This document shows positions 46,709 through 62,716 of a DNA stretch of 64,000 nucleotides, one piece after another. Position numbers and translations under genes: made by a program. Below the pieces are notes generated by a model, which made no database searches, was not told the origin of the DNA, and was given only the letters and a program-made list of their open reading frames with translations. Origin of the DNA: Caldithrix abyssi DSM 13497 (GTDB taxonomy: Bacteria; Calditrichota; Calditrichia; Calditrichales; Calditrichaceae). The stretch covers positions 2,230,501 to 2,294,500 of the forward strand of contig NZ_CP018099.1 of assembly GCF_001886815.1 (NCBI RefSeq), in the 5' to 3' direction. How positions within the stretch are numbered: the stretch's first letter is position 1; each line of letters opens with the position of its first letter.

Positions 46709-49700
46709 TTACACCATTAACACGCCGTCGATTTCGGCAAATATTTGTTCGTCCAGGTACAGATGTTGCATGGCGGCGCCGCTGGGGCAGGCGGCCACAC
46801 AGGTGCCGCAGCCCTTACATAGCACTTCGTTAACCACCGAGATATGTTTTTCAGGATCAAAACTAATAGCCGAGAAGGGGCAGAGCGCCACGCAGGTCTG
46901 GCAGCCGGAGCAGGCTTCTTCGTTAATCCAGGCTGTGTTTGGTTCCAGTTCTACCACGCCTTTGTCAATCAATGCCAGGGCCTCGGCAGCTGCCGCGCCG
47001 GCCTGAGCCACCGCATCGGGAATGTCCTTCGGCCCCTGACAGGCGCCGGCCAGAAAAACGCCATCGGTAAAGGTTGAAACGGGCGCCAGCTTCGGGTGCC
47101 GTTCCAGGAAAAAGCCTTCGGTGCTGCAAGAAATGTTAAATAAGCGGCGGATCATATCGGCGTCCGGCTGCGCTTCCAATCCCACCGAAAGAATGACCAT
47201 GTCCACCGGAATGCGGCGCACCATGCCAATCATGGTATCTTCCACACGGATCACCAGCTTGCCTTTTTCGGATGGATCCAGTGCCACGTCCGTAACCTCG
47301 GCCACGCGTCCGCGAATTAAGTGTGCGCCTTCTTTTAAAATACGATCGTAAAACTCTTCGTAGCCCTTGCCAAAGGCGCGCATGTCGATGTAAAAATTGT
47401 ACACTTCGGCATCCAGACGTTCGCGCAGCAGGTGGGCAAACTTCAGCGAATACATACAGCAAACGCGTGAGCAGTAGGCGTGATGATGCACATCGCGCGA
47501 TCCCACACAGTGAATGATGCCCACGCTTTTTGGCTGCTGTCCGTTCTGTAAAATAATTTCTCCGCCGGTTGGCCCGGCCGAGTTAATGAGCCGTTCGATT
47601 TCCAGACTGGTAAACACATTATGGTAGCGGCCGTAACCATAATTTGGCATCTTTTTGGCGTCGAAGGTTTTAAAGCCGGTGGCTAAAATAATCGTTCCCA
47701 CATCAATTTCTTTGATTTCGTCTTTTTGATTGTAATCGATGGCTTTGGCCTCGCAAACGGTAGAGCAAAGCTGACAATCGCAGCATATGCCGCAGGCCAG
47801 GCAGCGGATCGCTTCTTCCATGGCCATCTCTGGCGTGTAGCCAAGATGTACCTCTTCAAACGTACGCCTTTTTTCAATATCAATGGCCGGCATTTCCACG
47901 CGCCATTTGACTGGCACGCCTTCAGTATCCAGATCAAAGGTCGGTTCAAACGGCCCCTCCAATTCGCGTCCTTCGGAAAGGTCCTGATTGTTTAAGTAGC
48001 GATCGATGGAAATGGCTGCTTTTCGACCGGCGAACATGGCGTTGACCACCACGTCCGGGCCGGTTACGCAGTCGCCGCCGGCAAAAACGCCGGGGATGTT
48101 GGTTTCCAGAGTAAGCGGATCGGCTGCAAATGTGTTGAATTTGGTGACGGCCAGCCCCAACCGGTCGCGCAAAGCTTCCACATCAGGTTTCTGGCCGATA
48201 GTAACAATGGCGCCGTCGCAGGGCAGGGTAAACTCCGAATTGGGGATAGGCACCGGTCGGCGACGTCCCGTCTCGTCGGGATGGCCTAACTTGGTGCGAA
48301 TGAATTCCATGGCTGTCACGCGTCCGTTATTTCCGATAAAGCGCAGGGGCGAAGCCATAAAGTAGAAGCGAATGCCTTCTTTTTCCGCCTCTTCTACTTC
48401 CAGCTGATCGGCGGGCATTTCGTTGCGGCTGCGGCGATAGACGATGGTTACTTCTTCTGCGCCGCTTCGTAAAGCGGTACGGGCAGCGTCAATGGCCGAA
48501 TTTCCGCCGCCAATCACCAGCACGCGTTTGCCGGGCGTAACGTGCATGCCCAGATTAATGCGCCGTAAAAAGTCGATACCGCCCCAGATGCCGCGTAAAT
48601 CCTCTCCCGGAATGTTTAACTTCCGTTCAACGCCCGCGCCGATGGCTAAATAAACGGCCGCGTATTTTTTCTTTAATTCTTTCAAAGAAATATCGAGTCC
48701 GACGTGCGTGTTCAATTTTATGTGGATACCAATGCGTTCCAGACGTTCAATTTCTTTATTGATGATGCCGCGCGGCAGGCGGAAGGCCGGAATGCCCTGA
48801 ATGAGCATTCCTCCCGGTTGAGAGGCGGATTCGAAGATGGTTACCTTATAGCCGCGTTGACGCAGCTCGTAGGCGCACATCAGACCCGAAGGCCCGGAAC
48901 CGACAATGGCGATATGCTCCTTACGCTCTAATGCAGGATCGGGCTTGGGCAGTTCGTAATCGGCAAATTGGTCGGTGACAAAGCGTTTTAAACCGGGAAT
49001 GTTAACCGGCTCGTCCACCTTGTTCCTGGAACAGAGCGACATGCATGGATGGGAACAAACGCGCCCGCAAATGGAGGGCAGAGGATTGTCCAGCAGAATG
49101 ATTTCCAGCGCTTTTTCAAATTCGCCTTTGGCGATTAACTGAATGTAGGCCTGCGCTTTTTGATGCAGACTGCAGGTGGCCTGGCAGGGCGGAATGCCGC
49201 GCCGCGAAATGGTGTAGGTGTTGGGCACCGACTGCGGAAAAGGTCGATAAATGGCCTTGCGCGAGCCCAGCCCTTCGTCAAATTCTGAAGGCACGGTGAT
49301 GGGGCAGATTTTTGTGCATTCGCCGCAGCCAGTACACAGGTCTTCGATCACGTAGCGCGCCTTTTTGCGCACCTGCACCTTAAAATTGCCCACGTAGCCT
49401 TCCACGGCATCCACTTCGGCGTAAGTCATTAATTCAATATTGGGATGCGAGGCCACCTGTGTCATTTTGGGCGTTAAAATACAGGAGGCGCAATCCAGCG
49501 TGGGAAAGGTTTTGTCAAATTTTGCCATGTGCCCGCCAATGGAGGGCTCGCGTTCTACCAGATAAACCTTTTTGCCGGCGTTGGCAATGGTCAGTGCGGA
49601 TTGAATACCGGCAATACCGCCGCCGACAATCAGCACGTTGTCATTAACCGGCACGGAATTTTTTTCAAGTTCTTCGTGATAGAACACGCGTTTAACCGCC

Positions 49701-50077
49701 GCGGCAATCAATGCTTTGGCCTTGTGCGTGGCCTGCTGAACATCTTCGGTTACCCACGAATCGTGTTCGCGGATATTGGCCATGTGGAAAAAGTAAGGAT
49801 TGCTGCCGCCTTCTTCCACGGCGCGGCGAAACGTTGTTTCGTGCATCAGCGGAGAACAGGAAGCGACTACCACGCGATTGATGCCAAATTCTTGAATGTC
49901 CTGTTTAATCAATTCCTGCCCGGGATCCGAACACATGAATTTGTATTCGCGCGCCACGGTTACAAAAGGCAGCGTGGAAGCGAACTCAACCACTTCGGGA
50001 ACATTGACTTTTGCGGCGATATTCGTGCCGCAGTGGCACACATACACACCGATTTTTACTTTTCCATTCTCTTTCAT
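46709..50077 (-). CDS. HdrA-like flavoprotein with inserted GltD-type NAD(P)H oxidoreductase domain
   Basis: 1122 residues. HdrA N-terminal part (1-270): VCHCGTNIA, FAD motif VGGGIAG (150-156), CASC (196-199) and a CTGCGECTKIC cluster (248-258). An insertion of about 470 residues (about 285-755) is a glutamate-synthase small-subunit-like module: Cys-rich CSLHQ...CGRVCSHPC, FAD motif VGSGPSG (392-398), NAD(P) motif VIGGGNSAID (521-530). The HdrA remainder has CLACGICCDCQLC (759-771), CVGSRD...CSRVCC, and two C-terminal ferredoxin motifs (1056-1066, 1087-1097). Two or more flavins and many clusters suggest electron bifurcation among H2, ferredoxin, NAD(P)H and the HdrBC disulfide site. The true substrate is unknown. 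Confidence 0.9.
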   Translation of the reverse strand: MKENGKVKIGVYVCHCGTNIAAKVNVPEVVEFASTLPFVTVAREYKFMCSDPGQELIKQDIQEFGINRVVVASCSPLMHETTFRRAVEEGGSNPYFFHMANIREHDSWVTEDVQQATHKAKALIAAAVKRVFYHEELEKNSVPVNDNVLIVGGGIAGIQSALTIANAGKKVYLVEREPSIGGHMAKFDKTFPTLDCASCILTPKMTQVASHPNIELMTYAEVDAVEGYVGNFKVQVRKKARYVIEDLCTGCGECTKICPITVPSEFDEGLGSRKAIYRPFPQSVPNTYTISRRGIPPCQATCSLHQKAQAYIQLIAKGEFEKALEIILLDNPLPSICGRVCSHPCMSLCSRNKVDEPVNIPGLKRFVTDQFADYELPKPDPALERKEHIAIVGSGPSGLMCAYELRQRGYKVTIFESASQPGGMLIQGIPAFRLPRGIINKEIERLERIGIHIKLNTHVGLDISLKELKKKYAAVYLAIGAGVERKLNIPGEDLRGIWGGIDFLRRINLGMHVTPGKRVLVIGGGNSAIDAARTALRSGAEEVTIVYRRSRNEMPADQLEVEEAEKEGIRFYFMASPLRFIGNNGRVTAMEFIRTKLGHPDETGRRRPVPIPNSEFTLPCDGAIVTIGQKPDVEALRDRLGLAVTKFNTFAADPLTLETNIPGVFAGGDCVTGPDVVVNAMFAGRKAAISIDRYLNNQDLSEGRELEGPFEPTFDLDTEGVPVKWRVEMPAIDIEKRRTFEEVHLGYTPEMAMEEAIRCLACGICCDCQLCSTVCEAKAIDYNQKDEIKEIDVGTIILATGFKTFDAKKMPNYGYGRYHNVFTSLEIERLINSAGPTGGEIILQNGQQPKSVGIIHCVGSRDVHHHAYCSRVCCMYSLKFAHLLRERLDAEVYNFYIDMRAFGKGYEEFYDRILKEGAHLIRGRVAEVTDVALDPSEKGKLVIRVEDTMIGMVRRIPVDMVILSVGLEAQPDADMIRRLFNISCSTEGFFLERHPKLAPVSTFTDGVFLAGACQGPKDIPDAVAQAGAAAAEALALIDKGVVELEPNTAWINEEACSGCQTCVALCPFSAISFDPEKHISVVNEVLCKGCGTCVAACPSGAAMQHLYLDEQIFAEIDGVLMV

Positions 50078-50098
50078 AAATAAACCCCAATCAATTTG

Positions 50099-50986
50099 TC
50101 AAACCATTGGTTGGACATGGTGTAAACTTTGCACCAGCTCTTGCGCTGAAACGATATGTTGTTTTAAGCCAAGATCTTTGGCTTCGATGCCGAAAGCGAG
50201 CCCTAAAAGTTGTGTGAAATACAGAATGGGAATTTCAGCCAGCTCTTTATGCTGCTTTATGATTTTTTTCTGATAAACTTCCAGATTAAACTGACACAGG
50301 GGGCACACCGTGGCAATGCAGTTTGCGCCGCGCTCCAGCGCTTCTTTTAAAAGAATGTAGTTCAAACGTAAGCCCACATCGGCAATGGTGCCGGTCAATG
50401 AGCCGCCGCAGCAGCGCGTTTTTACCGGATAGTCGATCACTTCGGCTCCCAGAACATGAAACAAATGATCCATGGTCTCGGGGTAGGTCGCGTCGTCAAA
50501 TTCCTGAAAAGGGCGGACGATCTGACAGCCATAATAGGGGGCCACTTTAAAGGCGCGCAGCGGCAATCGTGTCCGATTGCGGATGGCCTCAAGTCCCACA
50601 TCGTTGTACAAAACTTCCAGAGGATGACGCACGCGAACCGTCCCTGAATACGTTAAGTTGGCGGCCGTAAGGGCGGCGTCCACTTTTTCTCTGATTTCCG
50701 GATATTTCTGGATGTAATCTTTGGTTTTGAGTAAAGTTAAATAACACGCGCTGCAGGGCGTTACAATATCACGTCCCAGAGTTTCGGACAGCGCCAGATT
50801 TCTTGAAGAGAGCACAAAGGAGGTTATCTCGTCCACGGACATGTAAAAGGTGGCGCCGCAACAATTCCAGTCGGGAAGCTCTTCCAGCTTTAATTCAAGG
50901 GCTTCAAAAACCTGCAAAAGGGAAGCTTCATACGATTTTGCCGTGCCTTTAATGGAACAGCCCGGGTAATAGGTGTATGTTTTCAT
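50099..50986 (-). CDS. hdrB: Heterodisulfide reductase subunit B-like (two CCG domains)
   Basis: 295 residues. YYPGCSIKGTAKSYE opens the first cysteine-rich CCG domain, with NCCGATFYMS and TPCSACYLTLL. The second has YYGCQIVRP, TRCCGGSLTG and CPLCQFNLE. Both complete domains are expected to bind noncubane [4Fe-4S] clusters that reduce disulfides. Its substrate in a bacterium lacking CoM/CoB is unknown. GGAGGC inside the hdrC end serves as ribosome-binding site; only 2 bases separate the genes. Confidence 0.93.
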   Translation of the reverse strand: MKTYTYYPGCSIKGTAKSYEASLLQVFEALELKLEELPDWNCCGATFYMSVDEITSFVLSSRNLALSETLGRDIVTPCSACYLTLLKTKDYIQKYPEIREKVDAALTAANLTYSGTVRVRHPLEVLYNDVGLEAIRNRTRLPLRAFKVAPYYGCQIVRPFQEFDDATYPETMDHLFHVLGAEVIDYPVKTRCCGGSLTGTIADVGLRLNYILLKEALERGANCIATVCPLCQFNLEVYQKKIIKQHKELAEIPILYFTQLLGLAFGIEAKDLGLKQHIVSAQELVQSLHHVQPMV

Positions 50987-50988
50987 GA

Positions 50989-51561
50989 TTATGCCTCCAC
51001 AGCCTTGAGCATGGTTTTAATTTGTTCTTTGTTTTGCACCTGTTCCTTCTTTAATGAAAGCCTGCCGGCGCGCATTAAGCTCCAGCCAAGCGGCGCCATG
51101 CGCAGCAAATGAAGCAAGCCGATTTTTAAAGCCAGCGTCATCACCAGCCGACTTTCGGTGATGCGGCCGTTCTTTTTGACCATGTTGACAAAGGAACGCG
51201 CCAGAATGGGAATGGCAAAACGGCGCCTGGGCAAAACTTTTTCTTCAATGGCGCGCCGCTTTAAACCGTACATGATGTCGGTAATTTTGATGTCCTTCGG
51301 GCAATTGACCGTGCAGGCATAGCACGAGGCGCATAACCAGATGGTAAAGCTCTGCAGCACGTCGTCCTTAAAACCGGAATCGGCCATGGCCATTAAACGG
51401 CGGGGCGTGATGTCCATGTAAATGCTAACCGGACAGATACTGCTGCAGGTGCCGCACTGCATGCATTCTCGCACCCGTTCTCCTCCCGGAATGGTGCTCA
51501 GCCAGGAGGTAAATTCGGGATTTAATTCGTTTTCGTACTTAACTTTTCGCAAAATTTGCAT
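50989..51561 (-). CDS. hdrC: Heterodisulfide reductase subunit C-like ferredoxin
   Basis: 190 residues with two [4Fe-4S] motifs: CMQCGTCSSICPVSIYMDIT and CASCYACTVNCPKDIKITDI. The C-terminal half is helical. It relays electrons from HdrA to HdrB. First gene of the leftward seven-gene operon, with promoter expected in the 490-bp gap to abgT. ATG 51561 follows GGAGAG; a TTG start four codons earlier overlaps that site and was rejected. Confidence 0.93.
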   Translation of the reverse strand: MQILRKVKYENELNPEFTSWLSTIPGGERVRECMQCGTCSSICPVSIYMDITPRRLMAMADSGFKDDVLQSFTIWLCASCYACTVNCPKDIKITDIMYGLKRRAIEEKVLPRRRFAIPILARSFVNMVKKNGRITESRLVMTLALKIGLLHLLRMAPLGWSLMRAGRLSLKKEQVQNKEQIKTMLKAVEA

Positions 51562-52051
51562 GGTTCTCTCCAACGAATTCTGGTTTTACCTGTTAATACT
51601 AAATTCAAATATGGTGCCAGAAAGATGAAGAAATGGCCAACTCACTGAAAAATAAAATCTTACATGAGAATGGTAGCTGCATGGCAAAAAACGAAAAAAA
51701 GCAAAAACGTTTCCTTAAGATGCGCAGGCGGGTAAAAAGGAAACGGTTGCCGCAAAAACAGTAGGGGAGAGTAATTGGTTTATATCGGTAAAAGTTAAAA
51801 TAACAGTGAAATAGCCCATCAGGTAAAAACCGCATTCGGGGTGTTACGATTTTTACATTTTTTATTGCACAATATTGTATTTTTTTTACATATTATATTT
51901 GGCGGCTTGAGCGCTGAAAATGTATGGCGCCGGTGAGTTAATAACTGTTAAAACAATTAGTTAGGCGGCTTTAATGCTTTTCGTTCAAAGATGAGTTTAA
52001 AAGTTATTGAAAACATGTAATCGTAAGTTGGATTAAATCAGGGAACCCGTA
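51562..52051. other. Divergent intergenic region between hdrC and the AbgT transporter
   Basis: 490 bp, increasingly AT-rich toward 51900. It must hold promoters for both directions, but no convincing boxes, dyads or riboswitch were recognised. A 76-codon frame on the minus strand (51605-51835) is low-complexity and rejected. Confidence 0.5.
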
Positions 52052-53779: not shown

Positions 53780-55039
<1,260 letters not shown>

Positions 55040-55180: not shown

Positions 55181-56368
55181 TTACCGTTTTTCAAACAGAT
55201 ACCTGCGAACCGCCAGGCCTGCTCTGGAATGCCATTGCTGGCTTGCCGCTAATTTCATTTGATTGTCTTTTGCCCAGCGTTCGACGGCGGCGGGCGCAAA
55301 GCCCAGCCAGATGTCGTGCATGGTGTCGGCCAGTTGCCTGTTGTTGTGCCGCTCAAAATCGACGATTACCAGATGGCCTTTTGCTTTAAGCAGCATGGCT
55401 GCTGTTTCGAACCATCCCGGCGGATGCGGTAAGTGATGCAGAACCAGGGTGGCAAAGATCAGATCTACAGATTGCGGACGCAGGGGAATTGTTCTCAGGT
55501 CAGCGCGGACGACCCAAAGATTTTGCAAACCGAGCGTACGCTGAATATGGCGCAAATATCTTACAAATCGTCGGTTTATATCAACGGCAATCACCTGCCG
55601 GGCTTTTAAGGCGCAATTAATGGCCACCATTCCGGTCGCGCTTCCGGCGTCCAGCACGGTTTTGTTCTCCAGTTCTGGCAGCTCTGAAAAGATTTGATGC
55701 AGGTGATCTAATGTAAAGAACTGTTCGCGTACCAGATCCCATTGTTGCCTGATGTTCGAAAAGTAGCGCTGACTCTGCTCAAAAATATTTCTCAGGATCG
55801 GCTGATCGGTGACCTCCGGTTTGACAAAGCGCAATACATCTTCCAGCGGGAGTTGCCGGGCGGCGCGCTTTAACCAATCGGGCAAAAAGAACAGTTGATA
55901 TTGTTTTTTAAAATTGTTGCGCGCACGACTCAGCAATGAAGTGACCGCCGCTTCGCTCAAACGGAACTCACTCGCCAGCTGCCGGTAATCCAGTTCTTCA
56001 ATTTCGCGCAACAAAAAGATTTTTCGCTGTCGTTCGGGAAGCGCCTGTAGAGCAAATTGAATGGCTTCGTCGTCGGTTTTTGCGTGCGGGGCGTCAAGCG
56101 TCTGGTGATGCGCCTCCAGTGGTTGGGCGGCCCGTCTATTTTGATCGCGATAGTAATTGATCACCTTGTTGCGAGCTACCGTGTAAAGCCAATTTTTCAA
56201 AGAACGATCGGGATTGAGTCTATCTAAATTTACCAGCGCCTGGTAATAAACTTCCTGAAATAAATCTCTGGCTACTTCGCCGTCTTCCACGGCGCGTTTC
56301 AGATAGCCTAAAATTTCTCCCTCATAGCTGTGCAGTACCTGCCAGATTTTGCGATACTTCTTATTCAT
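55181..56368 (-). CDS. ECF sigma factor fused to a SAM-dependent methyltransferase domain
   Basis: 395 residues. Residues 10-80 are sigma region 2 (DLFQEVYYQALVNLDRLNP, SLKNWLYTVARNKVINYYRD), and 104-156 are region 4 (LPERQRKIFLLREIEELDYR, then a helix-turn-helix). A linker with RYFSNIRQQWDLVREQFF leads to a class I methyltransferase fold (235-395): SAM motif VLDAGSATG (238-246), acidic D263, ADLRTIPL, LHHLPHP, and a WLGF segment near 354. The linker and WLGF tail resemble methyltransferase domains fused to ArsR-type repressors in other bacteria. Start ATG 56368: a more upstream TTG start would simply be part of a TTGACA sequence. Context beside ahcY suggests SAM/SAH sensing (inference). Confidence 0.88.
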   Translation of the reverse strand: MNKKYRKIWQVLHSYEGEILGYLKRAVEDGEVARDLFQEVYYQALVNLDRLNPDRSLKNWLYTVARNKVINYYRDQNRRAAQPLEAHHQTLDAPHAKTDDEAIQFALQALPERQRKIFLLREIEELDYRQLASEFRLSEAAVTSLLSRARNNFKKQYQLFFLPDWLKRAARQLPLEDVLRFVKPEVTDQPILRNIFEQSQRYFSNIRQQWDLVREQFFTLDHLHQIFSELPELENKTVLDAGSATGMVAINCALKARQVIAVDINRRFVRYLRHIQRTLGLQNLWVVRADLRTIPLRPQSVDLIFATLVLHHLPHPPGWFETAAMLLKAKGHLVIVDFERHNNRQLADTMHDIWLGFAPAAVERWAKDNQMKLAASQQWHSRAGLAVRRYLFEKR

Positions 56369-56508
56369 ATACACCCGAACGTTCAATTTCTTTCGCTGTA
56401 ATTTAAAATTTTTTGTCAATTAGAAAAATAAAAAAGAAAGGTGTGCATGCAGCTCCAGATTATCAGATTAAAACAGAACGTGTTGATGGAAAATACGATG
56501 ACGGTTTT

Positions 56509-58098: not shown

Positions 58099-58581
58099 TT
58101 AAAACTTGTAACCGATTTTGCGCAAAAACTCTTTTCGAACTTTAATATCCTCATCGGTTTCAATGCCTTTAGTCTTAACACCGTCAACCACGCCAAGGAT
58201 GGCCCGCCCCATTTCGGTTTCGGCAATAATGACTTCCGTTGGATTGGCGGTCGCGCAAAAAATTCTGGTGACTTCGGGCACCATTTTTATGGCATTCAGA
58301 ATGTTGATGGGGAAGGCATTGCCCAGAAAAATGATGAAACTGTGGCCGGCGGAAAGATTCATGGCGTTCTTTTTAGCCAGCTCGATCAATTCCTGATCAT
58401 TGCCGGAATAACGCACCAGAGCCTGCTGTGAAGCCTCGCAAAAGGCCAGGCCGAACTTGATCCCCGGATTGACGTTGACAATGGCTTCGTGCAAATCTTC
58501 AACGGTTTTAATGAAATGGGAATGGCCTAAAATAAAGTTCATCTCTTCCGGCTTTTCGATTTTGACGACTTTAAGTTCCAT
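58099..58581 (-). CDS. Adenosine-specific kinase family protein
   Basis: 160 residues matching the small Adenosine_kin family: MNFILGHSHFIKTVEDLHEA, FGLAFCEASQQALVRYSGND, AGHSFIIFLGNAFPINILNA and TANPTEVIIAETEMGRAILG. The name rests on work with an archaeal homolog; biochemical support in bacteria is thin. If correct it could consume adenosine released by AhcY, encoded 3 kb away on the same strand. ATG 58581 follows GGAGGG; a longer upstream start was rejected. Confidence 0.85.
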   Translation of the reverse strand: MELKVVKIEKPEEMNFILGHSHFIKTVEDLHEAIVNVNPGIKFGLAFCEASQQALVRYSGNDQELIELAKKNAMNLSAGHSFIIFLGNAFPINILNAIKMVPEVTRIFCATANPTEVIIAETEMGRAILGVVDGVKTKGIETDEDIKVRKEFLRKIGYKF

Positions 58582-58883
58582 CTTTGCCCTCCTATTCTTT
58601 TTATTGCTTAATTTAACAGATTTTTTGAAATAAGCAATAAACAAGTAACGCGGAAAATCATTGCCCGCGATTCTCCGGGCCGGCCTTTACTTACATAATG
58701 CCGGAATTGGAATTAAAGGTCAGAGTTATTCATCAAATTTAGCATCCTGCGCAGCCCCCTTTCCATTTCCGGAAAATATTCACAAAATGTCAAAGAAATC
58801 TTTGTTATTATTTTATAAAAATATTAAATTCCCTATCTTGAATAGCAAAATAAACCGCTAAATAAAAACAAAGGTAACAGGAT
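58582..58883. other. Divergent intergenic region before gcvPA
   Basis: About 300 bp, AT-rich near 58800-58870, presumably with promoters for both directions. I looked for a glycine riboswitch core and did not find one. Confidence 0.4.
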
Positions 58884-60212
58884 ATGAGCTACTGGTCTAA
58901 TTCCGAACAAGATATCAAAGCTATGCTGAAAACCATTGGCGTAAAAAATTTTGAAGAGTTAATTGCCAATATTCCCGAAGATCTTAGATTCAAAGGACAA
59001 TATCAAATTCCCGACGGGCTTTCTGAGATGGAGGCGCAGAAATTATTAGAAGAGCTTGCCGCCGAAAATCTGCCATTGATTCCTTTTGCTGGCGCCGGCG
59101 CTTACGACCACTACATACCGGCCATTGTAGATGAAATTGCATCTCGCCCCGAATTTTACACCTCCTACACGCCCTATCAGCCGGAGGTAAGTCAGGGCAA
59201 TTTGCAGGTCATGTACGAATTTCAGTCGTTAATTTGCGAATTAACGCAGATGGATGTTACCAACGCTTCCATGTACGAGGCCGGTTCGGCATTGGCAGAA
59301 GCCATTTTGCTGGCTTTAAGCCACACGCGCAAACAAACGGTATTGTTGCCTGCCACTCTGAACCTGCGTTATAAAAAAGTGATTGAAACCTATTTGCGCC
59401 ACATGGACGTGCAGATCGTTGAGATTCCGCAGAAACATTTTACGCTTGATCTGGAATTTTTAAGACAAAATATTGACGATAACACCGCCTGCATTGTGGT
59501 GCAAAATCCGAATTATTTCGGCTTTCTGGAAGATGTGGAAGCCATCAATCAATTACGCGCCGCTCACAAGGCCCTGCTGATTTATGCCTACGATCCGATA
59601 TCGCTGGGCATTTTAAAAACGCCGGGAGAGTATGAAGCGGATATTGCCGTGGCCGAAGGGCAGGCATTGGGTAATCCGCTAAATTACGGCGGCCCGTTTG
59701 TGGGGTTGTTTTCGGCCAGAGAAACGTTATTGCGCAAAATGCCGGGGCGCATTGCCGGCGAAACAAAAGACGTTGACGGAAAAAGAGGCTACGTTTTAAC
59801 CCTGCAAACGCGCGAGCAACATATTCGTCGCGAAAAGGCAACTTCCAATATCTGCACCAATTCGGGCCTTTTAACCGTTCGGGCGGCGATTTATCTTTCG
59901 GCTTTAGGAAAGAAGGGCATGCAGCAGGTTGCCAGCCTGTGTCTGAATAAGGCGCATTATCTGGCAGAGGGCTTAACCAAATTAGCGGGAATTAGCCTGG
60001 CCGTCGAAGCGCCGTTCTTTAAAGAATTTACTATTAAATTGCCAGTAAATGCCGATACTGTGATTCAGCAATTTGCACAGAAGGGCGTGCTGGCCGGCGT
60101 CAGTTTGCAACATCTTGGCCTAAAAGACCACTTACTGGTGGCCGTCACCGAGAAAAGAACCAGGCAGGAGCTGGATCATTACATCGAAATCATGAAATCA
60201 ATTTTAGATTGA
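58884..60212 (+). CDS. gcvPA: Glycine dehydrogenase (decarboxylating) subunit 1
   Basis: 442 residues of the split P-protein, N-terminal type. PFAGAGAYDHYIPAIVDEIA, EFYTSYTPYQPEVSQGNLQV, YEAGSALAEAILLA and GNPLNYGGPFVGLFSARE are typical. With GcvPB it forms the PLP enzyme that decarboxylates glycine and loads the aminomethyl group on lipoyl-GcvH. Its PLP-lysine partner is in GcvPB. gcvT, gcvH and lpd are not in the window. CAGGAT precedes the ATG; the next gene begins 8 bases after its stop. Confidence 0.96.
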   Translation: MSYWSNSEQDIKAMLKTIGVKNFEELIANIPEDLRFKGQYQIPDGLSEMEAQKLLEELAAENLPLIPFAGAGAYDHYIPAIVDEIASRPEFYTSYTPYQPEVSQGNLQVMYEFQSLICELTQMDVTNASMYEAGSALAEAILLALSHTRKQTVLLPATLNLRYKKVIETYLRHMDVQIVEIPQKHFTLDLEFLRQNIDDNTACIVVQNPNYFGFLEDVEAINQLRAAHKALLIYAYDPISLGILKTPGEYEADIAVAEGQALGNPLNYGGPFVGLFSARETLLRKMPGRIAGETKDVDGKRGYVLTLQTREQHIRREKATSNICTNSGLLTVRAAIYLSALGKKGMQQVASLCLNKAHYLAEGLTKLAGISLAVEAPFFKEFTIKLPVNADTVIQQFAQKGVLAGVSLQHLGLKDHLLVAVTEKRTRQELDHYIEIMKSILD

Positions 60213-60220
60213 GGGAGTGT

Positions 60221-61255
60221 ATGCCGTCCATTTTGATTGCCGATGACAATCCGGAGATGTTAGAGACTCTGGAACGCATTTTTGCTCTATATGAGTTTGA
60301 CGTGCACAAGGCCGAAAACGGAAAACAGGCCGTTGAAATCGCTGAAAAGGAATTGCCCGATCTGGTCATTCTCGATGCGAAAATGCCGGTCATGGATGGC
60401 TTTGAAGCGTGCAGGATTTTAAAGAACAGTCGTAGCACGCGCGATATTCCGGTCGTCTTTTTAACGGCCAACTACATTCAGCCCAATGATCGCGTCACCG
60501 GTTTGCAATTGGGCGCAGACGATTATTTGCTAAAACCGTTTAACTCCAAGGAGCTGGTGGCCAGAGTCAAGAGCATCATCAAACGTAATGAAATATTACG
60601 CATGCTCAAAGATGAAAATCATCGACTGGCAGAAACCACCAAAAAGATCAAAAGAGAACTGAAGGCCTTTTTGGAACATAATCAGGCGGTCAGTGAAAAT
60701 CCCATGATTGACCATTTAACCGGTCTTTACAATTTCAATTTCTTTAAGATTCGTCTAAAAGAAGAAATTCAAATTTCGGCTCGTTACAAAGCGGAGTTTG
60801 GTCTGGCCGTTGTTTTGATCGAAAATTTTGATCAGATTAACGAAGTTCTCGGTCATCAACTGGGCAACTACATTTTAATGAAAATGGCCAATTTTTTGCT
60901 GACCAAAACGCGTAAGGCCGATGTTCTGGCGCGTTCCGGCGAAGGTCTGTTCTACATTTTGATGCCGCACACCGATGCCGAAGGCGCTTACATCGAATCG
61001 GAGCGAATTCGGGTGGTGCTCTCGACCACGGACTATTTAGACGAAGAAATTCTGGAAACCCTGCATCCCGGAAAGAGAAAGATCAGTGAATTGCAGAATC
61101 TGGTGGTGAAAGTAGGCGTTGTTGCAGCTACCACCGAACAATTGCAAAAAGAAACCGTTGATTCTCTTTTACAACGTTTGAGTCGTTGTCTGGATATTGC
61201 CAGAGAGAAAAACTACAGTGTGACCATTGCCGAAAACAAGATCGAAGAGGAGTAA
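60221..61255 (+). CDS. Response regulator: REC with degenerate GGDEF domain
   Basis: 344 residues. Receiver domain (1-120) with phospho-acceptor D52 (LVILDAKMPVMDG) and D8-D9. A coiled segment (about 125-155) leads into a GGDEF-like domain (about 165-300) with DHLTGLYNFNFFKIRL, but the active-site GG(D/E)EF is replaced by SGEGLF, so cyclic-di-GMP synthesis is unlikely. ATG 60221 follows GAGGGAG; a TTG start overlapping gcvPA is less likely. It lies between gcvPA and gcvPB in one transcript, with 6 bases to gcvPB. Confidence 0.87.
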   Translation: MPSILIADDNPEMLETLERIFALYEFDVHKAENGKQAVEIAEKELPDLVILDAKMPVMDGFEACRILKNSRSTRDIPVVFLTANYIQPNDRVTGLQLGADDYLLKPFNSKELVARVKSIIKRNEILRMLKDENHRLAETTKKIKRELKAFLEHNQAVSENPMIDHLTGLYNFNFFKIRLKEEIQISARYKAEFGLAVVLIENFDQINEVLGHQLGNYILMKMANFLLTKTRKADVLARSGEGLFYILMPHTDAEGAYIESERIRVVLSTTDYLDEEILETLHPGKRKISELQNLVVKVGVVAATTEQLQKETVDSLLQRLSRCLDIAREKNYSVTIAENKIEEE

Positions 61256-61261
61256 GTAAGC

Positions 61262-62716
61262 ATGTACCGAAAATTGATTTTTGAATTGAGTAAAGAAGGA
61301 CGCGAAGGGCACACGTTGCCCCGCTGCGATGTTCCCGTAAAAAAGAATGAAGATTTGATTCCTGATAAATATTTGCGTCATAAAGCGGCCAATTTACCAC
61401 AGGTGGCAGAAAACGAAGTTGTTCGACATTTTGTAATGCTTTCCACTTTGAATCATCATGTGGACAAAGCTTTTTATCCGCTGGGTTCCTGCACCATGAA
61501 ATACAACCCCAAAATAAATGAGCGGCTGGCCGGTTTGCCCGGATTTATGAATTTGCATCCCGAGCAGCCAGCAGAAAAGGTACAGGGCGCTTTACGGTTG
61601 ATGTACGAGCTGGGCGAGCTGCTTAAAGAAATTACCGGCTTCAGCGCCATTACGCTTCAGCCCGCAGCCGGCGCCCAGGGAGAACTGACCGGTTTGCTGC
61701 TGATTAAAAAATATCACCAGATGAAGGGACGTCAACGCACGGTTATTCTGGTGCCCGATTCGGCGCACGGCACCAATCCCGCATCCGCCGCCATTTGCGG
61801 TTTTCGGATTAAAACCGTTCGCTCCACAGAGCAGGGATTGGTGGATATGGAAGATTTAAAAGCAAAAACCGATGAGAATGTGGCGGGCATCATGCTCACC
61901 AATCCCAGTACGCTGGGTATTTTTGAGACGCAGCTAAAAGAGATTCGCGCCGTGATGGACGAAGTGGATGCCCTGATGTACATGGATGGCGCAAATTTAA
62001 ACGCCCTGTTCGGCATTGTTCGTCCGGGAGAAACCGGCTTTGACGTCATGCACATCAATTTGCACAAATCATTTTCCACGCCCCATGGCGGCGGCGGGCC
62101 GGGCTCGGGACCGGTGGCCGTAAACGACAAACTAAAAGATTATCTGCCCGCGCCGATTATCATTGAAAAGAACGGACGTTATTTGCTGGAATACAATTTG
62201 CCAGAGAGCATTGGCAGCGTTCATACGTTTTACGGCAATTTTGCCATTTTTGTGCGGGCCTACGCCTACATCCGTATTCTGGGCAAAAGCGGCTTGCCCC
62301 AGGTGACGCGCCATGCGATCATTAACGCCAATTATCTCAAAGCGCAGTTAAAAGAGCTGTTTGAATTGGAATATCCCGCGCCAACCATGCACGAATTTGT
62401 CCTTTCGGCCGAAAAACAGAAAAAACGCGGCGCTAAGGCTCTGGACATTGCCAAACGGTTATTGGATTATGGCGTGCATCCGCCCACAGTTTATTTTCCT
62501 TTGATCGTTAAAGAGGCGATGATGATCGAACCGACCGAAAGCGAAAGCAAAGAGATGCTCGACGTATTTGTGCAGAGCTTAAAACAGATTGATCGTGAAA
62601 TTGACGAAAATCTGGAAACGGTTTTACAGGCGCCGCACAATACGCCGGTTCGGCGGCTGGATGAGGCTGGCGCGGTTAAAAATCTGAATATTAATTATTT
62701 TAAGAATAAAGTTTAA
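61262..62716 (+). CDS. gcvPB: Glycine dehydrogenase (decarboxylating) subunit 2
   Basis: 484 residues of the C-terminal type P-protein half. PLP lysine is K269 in HINLHKSFSTPHGGGGPGSG. KAFYPLGSCTMKYNPKIN and LQPAAGAQGELTGLLLIKKY are further hallmarks. Works with GcvPA, from which it is separated by the response-regulator gene. Another response regulator follows after 17 bases. Confidence 0.96.
   Translation: MYRKLIFELSKEGREGHTLPRCDVPVKKNEDLIPDKYLRHKAANLPQVAENEVVRHFVMLSTLNHHVDKAFYPLGSCTMKYNPKINERLAGLPGFMNLHPEQPAEKVQGALRLMYELGELLKEITGFSAITLQPAAGAQGELTGLLLIKKYHQMKGRQRTVILVPDSAHGTNPASAAICGFRIKTVRSTEQGLVDMEDLKAKTDENVAGIMLTNPSTLGIFETQLKEIRAVMDEVDALMYMDGANLNALFGIVRPGETGFDVMHINLHKSFSTPHGGGGPGSGPVAVNDKLKDYLPAPIIIEKNGRYLLEYNLPESIGSVHTFYGNFAIFVRAYAYIRILGKSGLPQVTRHAIINANYLKAQLKELFELEYPAPTMHEFVLSAEKQKKRGAKALDIAKRLLDYGVHPPTVYFPLIVKEAMMIEPTESESKEMLDVFVQSLKQIDREIDENLETVLQAPHNTPVRRLDEAGAVKNLNINYFKNKV

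Follow-up and report, generated by a model that had tools for sequence, protein, structure and literature searches.

An ECF sigma factor fused to a SahR-type methyltransferase domain beside ahcY in Calditrichota: a candidate one-component sensor for the SAM cycle

Introduction

SahR is an S-adenosylhomocysteine (SAH)-responsive regulator whose core regulon comprises sahR, ahcY, metH, metF and metK, and its gene is linked to ahcY or other genes of the S-adenosylmethionine (SAM) cycle (PMC4239095). The protein consists of an ArsR-type winged helix, with a described or predicted repressor role (PMC8877191), and a C-terminal domain of methyltransferase (MT) fold. A second type of relevant system is found among the ECF sigma factors. 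For other ECF groups it is established that fused C-terminal regulatory domains can take the place of anti-sigma factors, and none of the extensions treated in the review section concerned is a methyltransferase domain (PMC8999054).

Here, we describe a gene of Caldithrix abyssi DSM 13497 that encodes an ECF sigma factor core followed by a SahR-type MT domain and lies next to ahcY. It is located in a stretch of 64,000 nucleotides, referred to below as the window. Fused-sensor ECF factors and SahR are both known; their combination was not found in the literature searched. No sigma factor with a methyltransferase domain was found there either, and an ECF group of such architecture is not excluded, the main ECF reclassification having remained outside the search.

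Results

An earlier note on this DNA, made from the sequence alone, had claimed that sigma regions 2 and 4 and a class I MT domain follow each other in one protein. A Pfam search confirmed this arrangement in a single reading frame (Table 1), and the strings quoted as landmarks (VLDAGSATG, RYFSNIRQQWDLVREQFF and WLGF) were all found in the protein. The two sigma regions are separated by ~20 residues and the protein scores above the cut-off of TIGR02937 (5.6e-26); since it has sigma-70 regions 2 and 4 but lacks regions 1 and 3, it qualifies as an ECF (group 4) factor. Matches to Methyltransf_31/11/23/25 (1.6e-15 and weaker) cover about residues 232–350, and homology of the MT domain extends from about residue 193 to the C-terminus. 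In the alignments, D240, G242 and G246 of motif I are invariant in the family, and an LVLHH motif is conserved together with motif I. With a class I fold, SAM motif I and an acidic residue after strand 2, the domain also meets the definition of a methyltransferase enzyme. The AF2 model displayed the expected domains at moderate confidence (pLDDT 75, pTM 0.49), and Foldseek matched its MT part to class I methyltransferases. Because of this pTM and of the low-confidence inter-domain segments (residues 78–97 and 181–207), the model provides no usable domain contacts and says nothing about gating.

Table 1. Positions in the window of the fusion gene, its domains and motifs, the promoter-like element and ahcY.
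Feature	Position	Strand	Evidence or remark
ECF sigma factor–methyltransferase-fold fusion gene	55181..56368, stop included	(-)	ATG at 56368, 395 aa
Sigma region 2, residues 13-79	56132..56332	(-)	Pfam PF04542 Sigma70_r2, 2.1e-13
Sigma region 4, residues 101-150	55919..56068	(-)	Pfam PF08281 Sigma70_r4_2, 2.3e-14
Linker helix and SahR-type methyltransferase domain, residues 193-395	55184..55792	(-)	Pfam, alignments, SahR matches, AF2, Foldseek
SAM-binding motif I DAGSATG, residues 240-246	55631..55651	(-)	Alignments
WLGF tail motif, residues 354-357	55298..55309	(-)	Alignments; common to most ArsR-MT regulators
Promoter-like element GCGAAAGA-N15-TGTATA	56368..56396	(-)	Conserved; last A is the A of the ATG
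ahcY, S-adenosylhomocysteine hydrolase	53780..55036	(-)	TIGR00936 equivalog, 642 bits, cut-off 498; next gene downstream

The genome (4.98 Mb, one contig) has a single copy of the fusion, the remaining matches being sigma-only or MT-only. The claim was to fall if the gene proved to be a frameshift or an assembly join of two genes, or if homologues always kept the two domains separate, and neither is the case, as the fusion recurs uninterrupted in independent assemblies. It is carried by 9 of 40 Calditrichota genomes and is therefore not an assembly artefact. Twelve related fusions from independent assemblies (11 full length and one cut by a contig end) have the same linker, and we rejected an error joining two genes as having next to no chance of being correct.

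To place the MT domain, we considered the best MT-only matches of a profile search across 385 genomes, which were ArsR-MT fusions of about 305–335 aa and solo MTs with Cys-rich tails. ArsR-MT genes flank ahcY in five genomes and metK-ahcY in a sixth, and in Leptospira an ArsR-MT gene lies directly before ahcY and close to metH, its MT domain matching that of the fusion protein. The linker helix (SQRYF...W) and the WLGF tail both fall within the alignment common to sigma-MT and ArsR-MT proteins, as do motif I and LVLHH. The ArsR-MT gene of S. meliloti measures 1023 nt and adjoins metF. We call its product SahR because the length is that of the sahR gene in Ensifer aridi (PMC8877191) and SahR has been reported in Rhizobiales. 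This protein matched the fusion protein by BLASTP (2e-14 over 193 residues) and by profile (1.8e-36). In agreement with the earlier reading, the alignment and the SahR match thus identify the MT domain, linker and WLGF tail included, as that of ArsR-MT proteins encoded near SAM-cycle genes.

A tree of 27 MT domains places all 12 sigma-MT members on one side of a branch (98/97), with the ArsR-MT proteins and solo MTs on the other. This tree leaves out three long-branch outgroups, and a tree including them split the ECF group. As the 12 domains form one clade in the smaller tree, a single head swap, that is, one fusion event, is the simplest history. Compared with SahR feature by feature, the fusion protein has the C-terminal SahR-type methyltransferase-fold domain, and linkage to ahcY or SAM-cycle genes holds in 9/9 Calditrichota and fails in the three members outside the phylum. 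The ArsR-type winged-helix domain is absent and replaced by sigma regions 2 and 4, so we did not file the fusion as a SahR. Solo members of the MT family, whose Cys-rich tails read ECC... or DDCC..., were observed at L028 501-1130, L029 6969-7595 and L030 7230-7853, not near ahcY; they may be enzymes with a metal(loid)-related role.

The next gene downstream on the same strand had been read as ahcY, and its TIGR00936 match bears this out (Table 1); the gap between the two genes is about 144 nt. The suggestion that the fusion might recur beside ahcY proved right within the phylum: in all nine Calditrichota fusion genomes (6 genera in 2 families, one copy cut by a contig end), ahcY is the immediate downstream gene on the same strand, and the other neighbours differ between genera. 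ahcY itself was found in 37/40 Calditrichota genomes, most of which have no fusion, and where fusion-lacking genomes were inspected, it had neither a sigma nor an MT gene next to it. The search of 385 genomes added three fusions from two other small phyla (G143, G366 and G235). None of these is beside ahcY, so the link is solid for Calditrichota only. The G143 gene adjoins one for a cNMP-binding/patatin protein, and those of G366 and G235 share an operon-like cluster (L099 2205-9377, L100 1649-8728), with a protein with a TonB-like N-terminus encoded upstream of the sigma-MT gene and three exported-looking proteins downstream. None of the four G366 cluster proteins tested had a Pfam match. The cluster suggests a different target of sigma-MT proteins outside Calditrichota. 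A contig scan with a single strict pattern found only Calditrichota, its matches being labelled Calditrichota or Caldithrix except for one labelled Caldisericaceae; resting on one strict pattern, the scan is no measure of how widely the fusion has spread.

The MT domain follows region 4 in 12/12 fusions, and among the neighbours in the nine Calditrichota fusion genomes no conserved anti-sigma gene was recognised, as expected from the earlier inference that none would be needed. A conserved extra domain after region 4 without a conserved anti-sigma neighbour is what defines an ECF factor with a regulatory C-terminal extension, and the fusion meets this definition. No SAM/SAH riboswitch was found before the fusion gene or ahcY.

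Adenosine is the other product of AhcY, and we noted a gene for an adenosine-specific kinase family protein (PF04008, 1.8e-76) at 58102-58584 (-) in the window; it lies on the strand of the fusion gene, ~1.7 kb upstream of it. By eye, no such gene was seen beside the fusion in the regions retrieved from other genomes. Elsewhere in the window, adjacent genes at 46709-51573 (-) resemble heterodisulfide-reductase subunits, among them a 1122-aa HdrA-like protein that seems to contain a glutamate-synthase-like NAD(P)H oxidoreductase insert. At 58884-62716 (+), we recognised by eye gcvPA and gcvPB, the two parts of a split glycine dehydrogenase, separated by a response-regulator/GGDEF-like gene.

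The 5' end of the fusion gene carries a promoter-like element that the earlier note had missed. Its two blocks, GCGAAAGA and TGTATA, are found there 15 nt apart in 8/8 testable genomes, within flanking sequence that cannot be aligned between genera; about 81% of the 30 nt upstream of it are A+T. With at most one mismatch, the pattern occurred at 8 gene-start sites and 3 stray positions in the nine genomes, and the reversed-pattern control gave 17; shifting the pattern by one base (N16 for N15) left no site at the fusion gene. Leave-one-genus-out scoring returned the element as the best site of the upstream region in 8/8 cases, although for two genomes, where no more than four other sites went into the matrix, the top-scoring of 500 shuffles equalled or beat it. 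We ruled out that the element is conserved coding sequence, because its offset to the ATG differs by genus and one genome (G012) has stops in that frame. Sigma-70-like promoters upstream of the fusion gene were at background level.

In the C. abyssi genome, no site except that at the fusion gene has fewer than two mismatches, and sites with two mismatches are at background (31 in all versus 52 in the control), so that a wider regulon is unsupported. A copy of the element belonging to ahcY itself was not seen in the intergenic regions (gap 0–290 nt), and the element is absent from the three sigma-MT members outside Calditrichota. It resembles the promoters of B. subtilis SigW (consensus TGAAAC-N16,17-CGTA, PMC2375139; element CGAAAG-N16-TGTATA). 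It differs from SigW-type autoregulatory promoters in that its -10-like block overlaps the start codon in 6/8 genomes, only two having space for a short leader, and its recognition by the fusion sigma is inferred. Given this overlap, transcription initiated at the usual distance would begin just past the start codon. This may reflect an unusual initiation geometry, a sigma factor made from another transcript with the element mainly driving ahcY, or an operator; the question is unresolved.

Discussion

In our view it is fairly likely that the fusion protein works as a ligand-gated ECF sigma factor of the one-component type, serving the SAM cycle by activating its own operon, which would include ahcY. 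With an SAH-sensing type of domain attached to a sigma factor and ahcY adjacent in 9/9 Calditrichota fusion genomes, it probably senses SAH within a single protein and turns genes on rather than repressing them. The C-terminal domain would bind SAM and/or SAH and act as a sensor instead of, or in addition to, being an enzyme. A build-up of SAH, or a drop in the SAM/SAH ratio, would alter its contact with sigma regions 2 and 4, which, once freed, would recruit RNA polymerase; the anatomy of the fusion fits such control of their access to the polymerase, for which other ECF factors with C-terminal extensions provide described examples (PMC8999054). The holoenzyme would then read the element at the 5' end of its own gene and transcribe the operon with ahcY, and AhcY would remove the SAH. 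The job would be that of SahR with the logic inverted, an activator being switched on instead of a repressor released. We expect activation by SAH, given that sigma factors activate and that the gene linked to this one is ahcY. What the ligand is, that it gates the sigma part, which way the switch works, that this sigma factor uses the element, and that ahcY is co-transcribed and activated are all inferred, with no ligand or transcription data.

The conserved SAM motif does not by itself single out a sensor, being equally expected of an active enzyme. Indeed, motif I and the fold are intact and the solo relatives with Cys-rich tails look like enzymes, so that the domain might methylate a macromolecule, be it RNA polymerase, its own sigma part or nucleic acid, while the adjacent ahcY clears the SAH produced. 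We regard this as distinctly unlikely: among domain-fused proteins, the closest relatives are the ArsR-MT regulators, which have been described as responding to SAH and not as catalysts, and a sigma factor of low abundance would have little need of an SAH hydrolase to itself. Nor do we think it likely, although somewhat more credible, that the sensor reads SAM, with SAM keeping the sigma part inactive and a shortage of SAM freeing it. There is a precedent in SamR of Xanthomonadales, a distant SahR homologue proposed to be SAM-responsive; however, it is SAH-responsive regulation that accompanies ahcY, and the SamR regulon lacks SAM-cycle genes except metK (PMC4239095). The sole linked gene at the locus is ahcY.

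More serious, even if still improbable, is the possibility that the element is an operator or the promoter of another factor, and that the fusion controls ahcY in some other way, or controls other genes. No direct evidence ties the element to the sigma factor of the fusion, the members outside Calditrichota lack it and are located elsewhere, and the overlap with the ATG described above is awkward for a promoter of this kind. On the other hand, two blocks at a fixed spacing, the likeness to SigW promoters and the AT-rich upstream flank speak against that possibility, as does the presence of the element at the fusion gene in every testable genome and at background level elsewhere.

Returning to the ligand-gated sigma factor, its kinship with SahR and SamR lies in a homologous C-terminal MT-fold domain, the SQ-x-[YF]F-x6-W linker and, in most, the WLGF tail, and it shares with SahR the linkage to ahcY or other SAM-cycle genes (PMC4239095). 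SahR regulons also take in metH, metF and metK and have palindromic operators, whereas for the fusion we found only the ecf-ahcY locus with its element. With ECF factors that carry a C-terminal extension (PMC8999054), it has in common the sigma 2–4 core, a fused C-terminal sensor and the lack of an anti-sigma factor. Unlike those extensions, the one described here belongs to an independently known family of metabolite sensors. We lean towards the view that one fusion event transferred the sensor half of SahR to an ECF sigma factor, making the sigma factor itself the sensor of SAH (or SAM/SAH) and converting a repressor circuit into direct activation of ahcY; the regulon may be one operon.

If this is correct, a central metabolite would gate an ECF sigma factor by way of a sensor domain whose family is already known, and because that family is known, ligand, switch and promoter are directly testable. 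The protein could also supply a compact part for an SAH biosensor. For the family itself, it would mean that a one-component sensor has been re-headed, from ArsR repressor to sigma activator, with its target gene kept.
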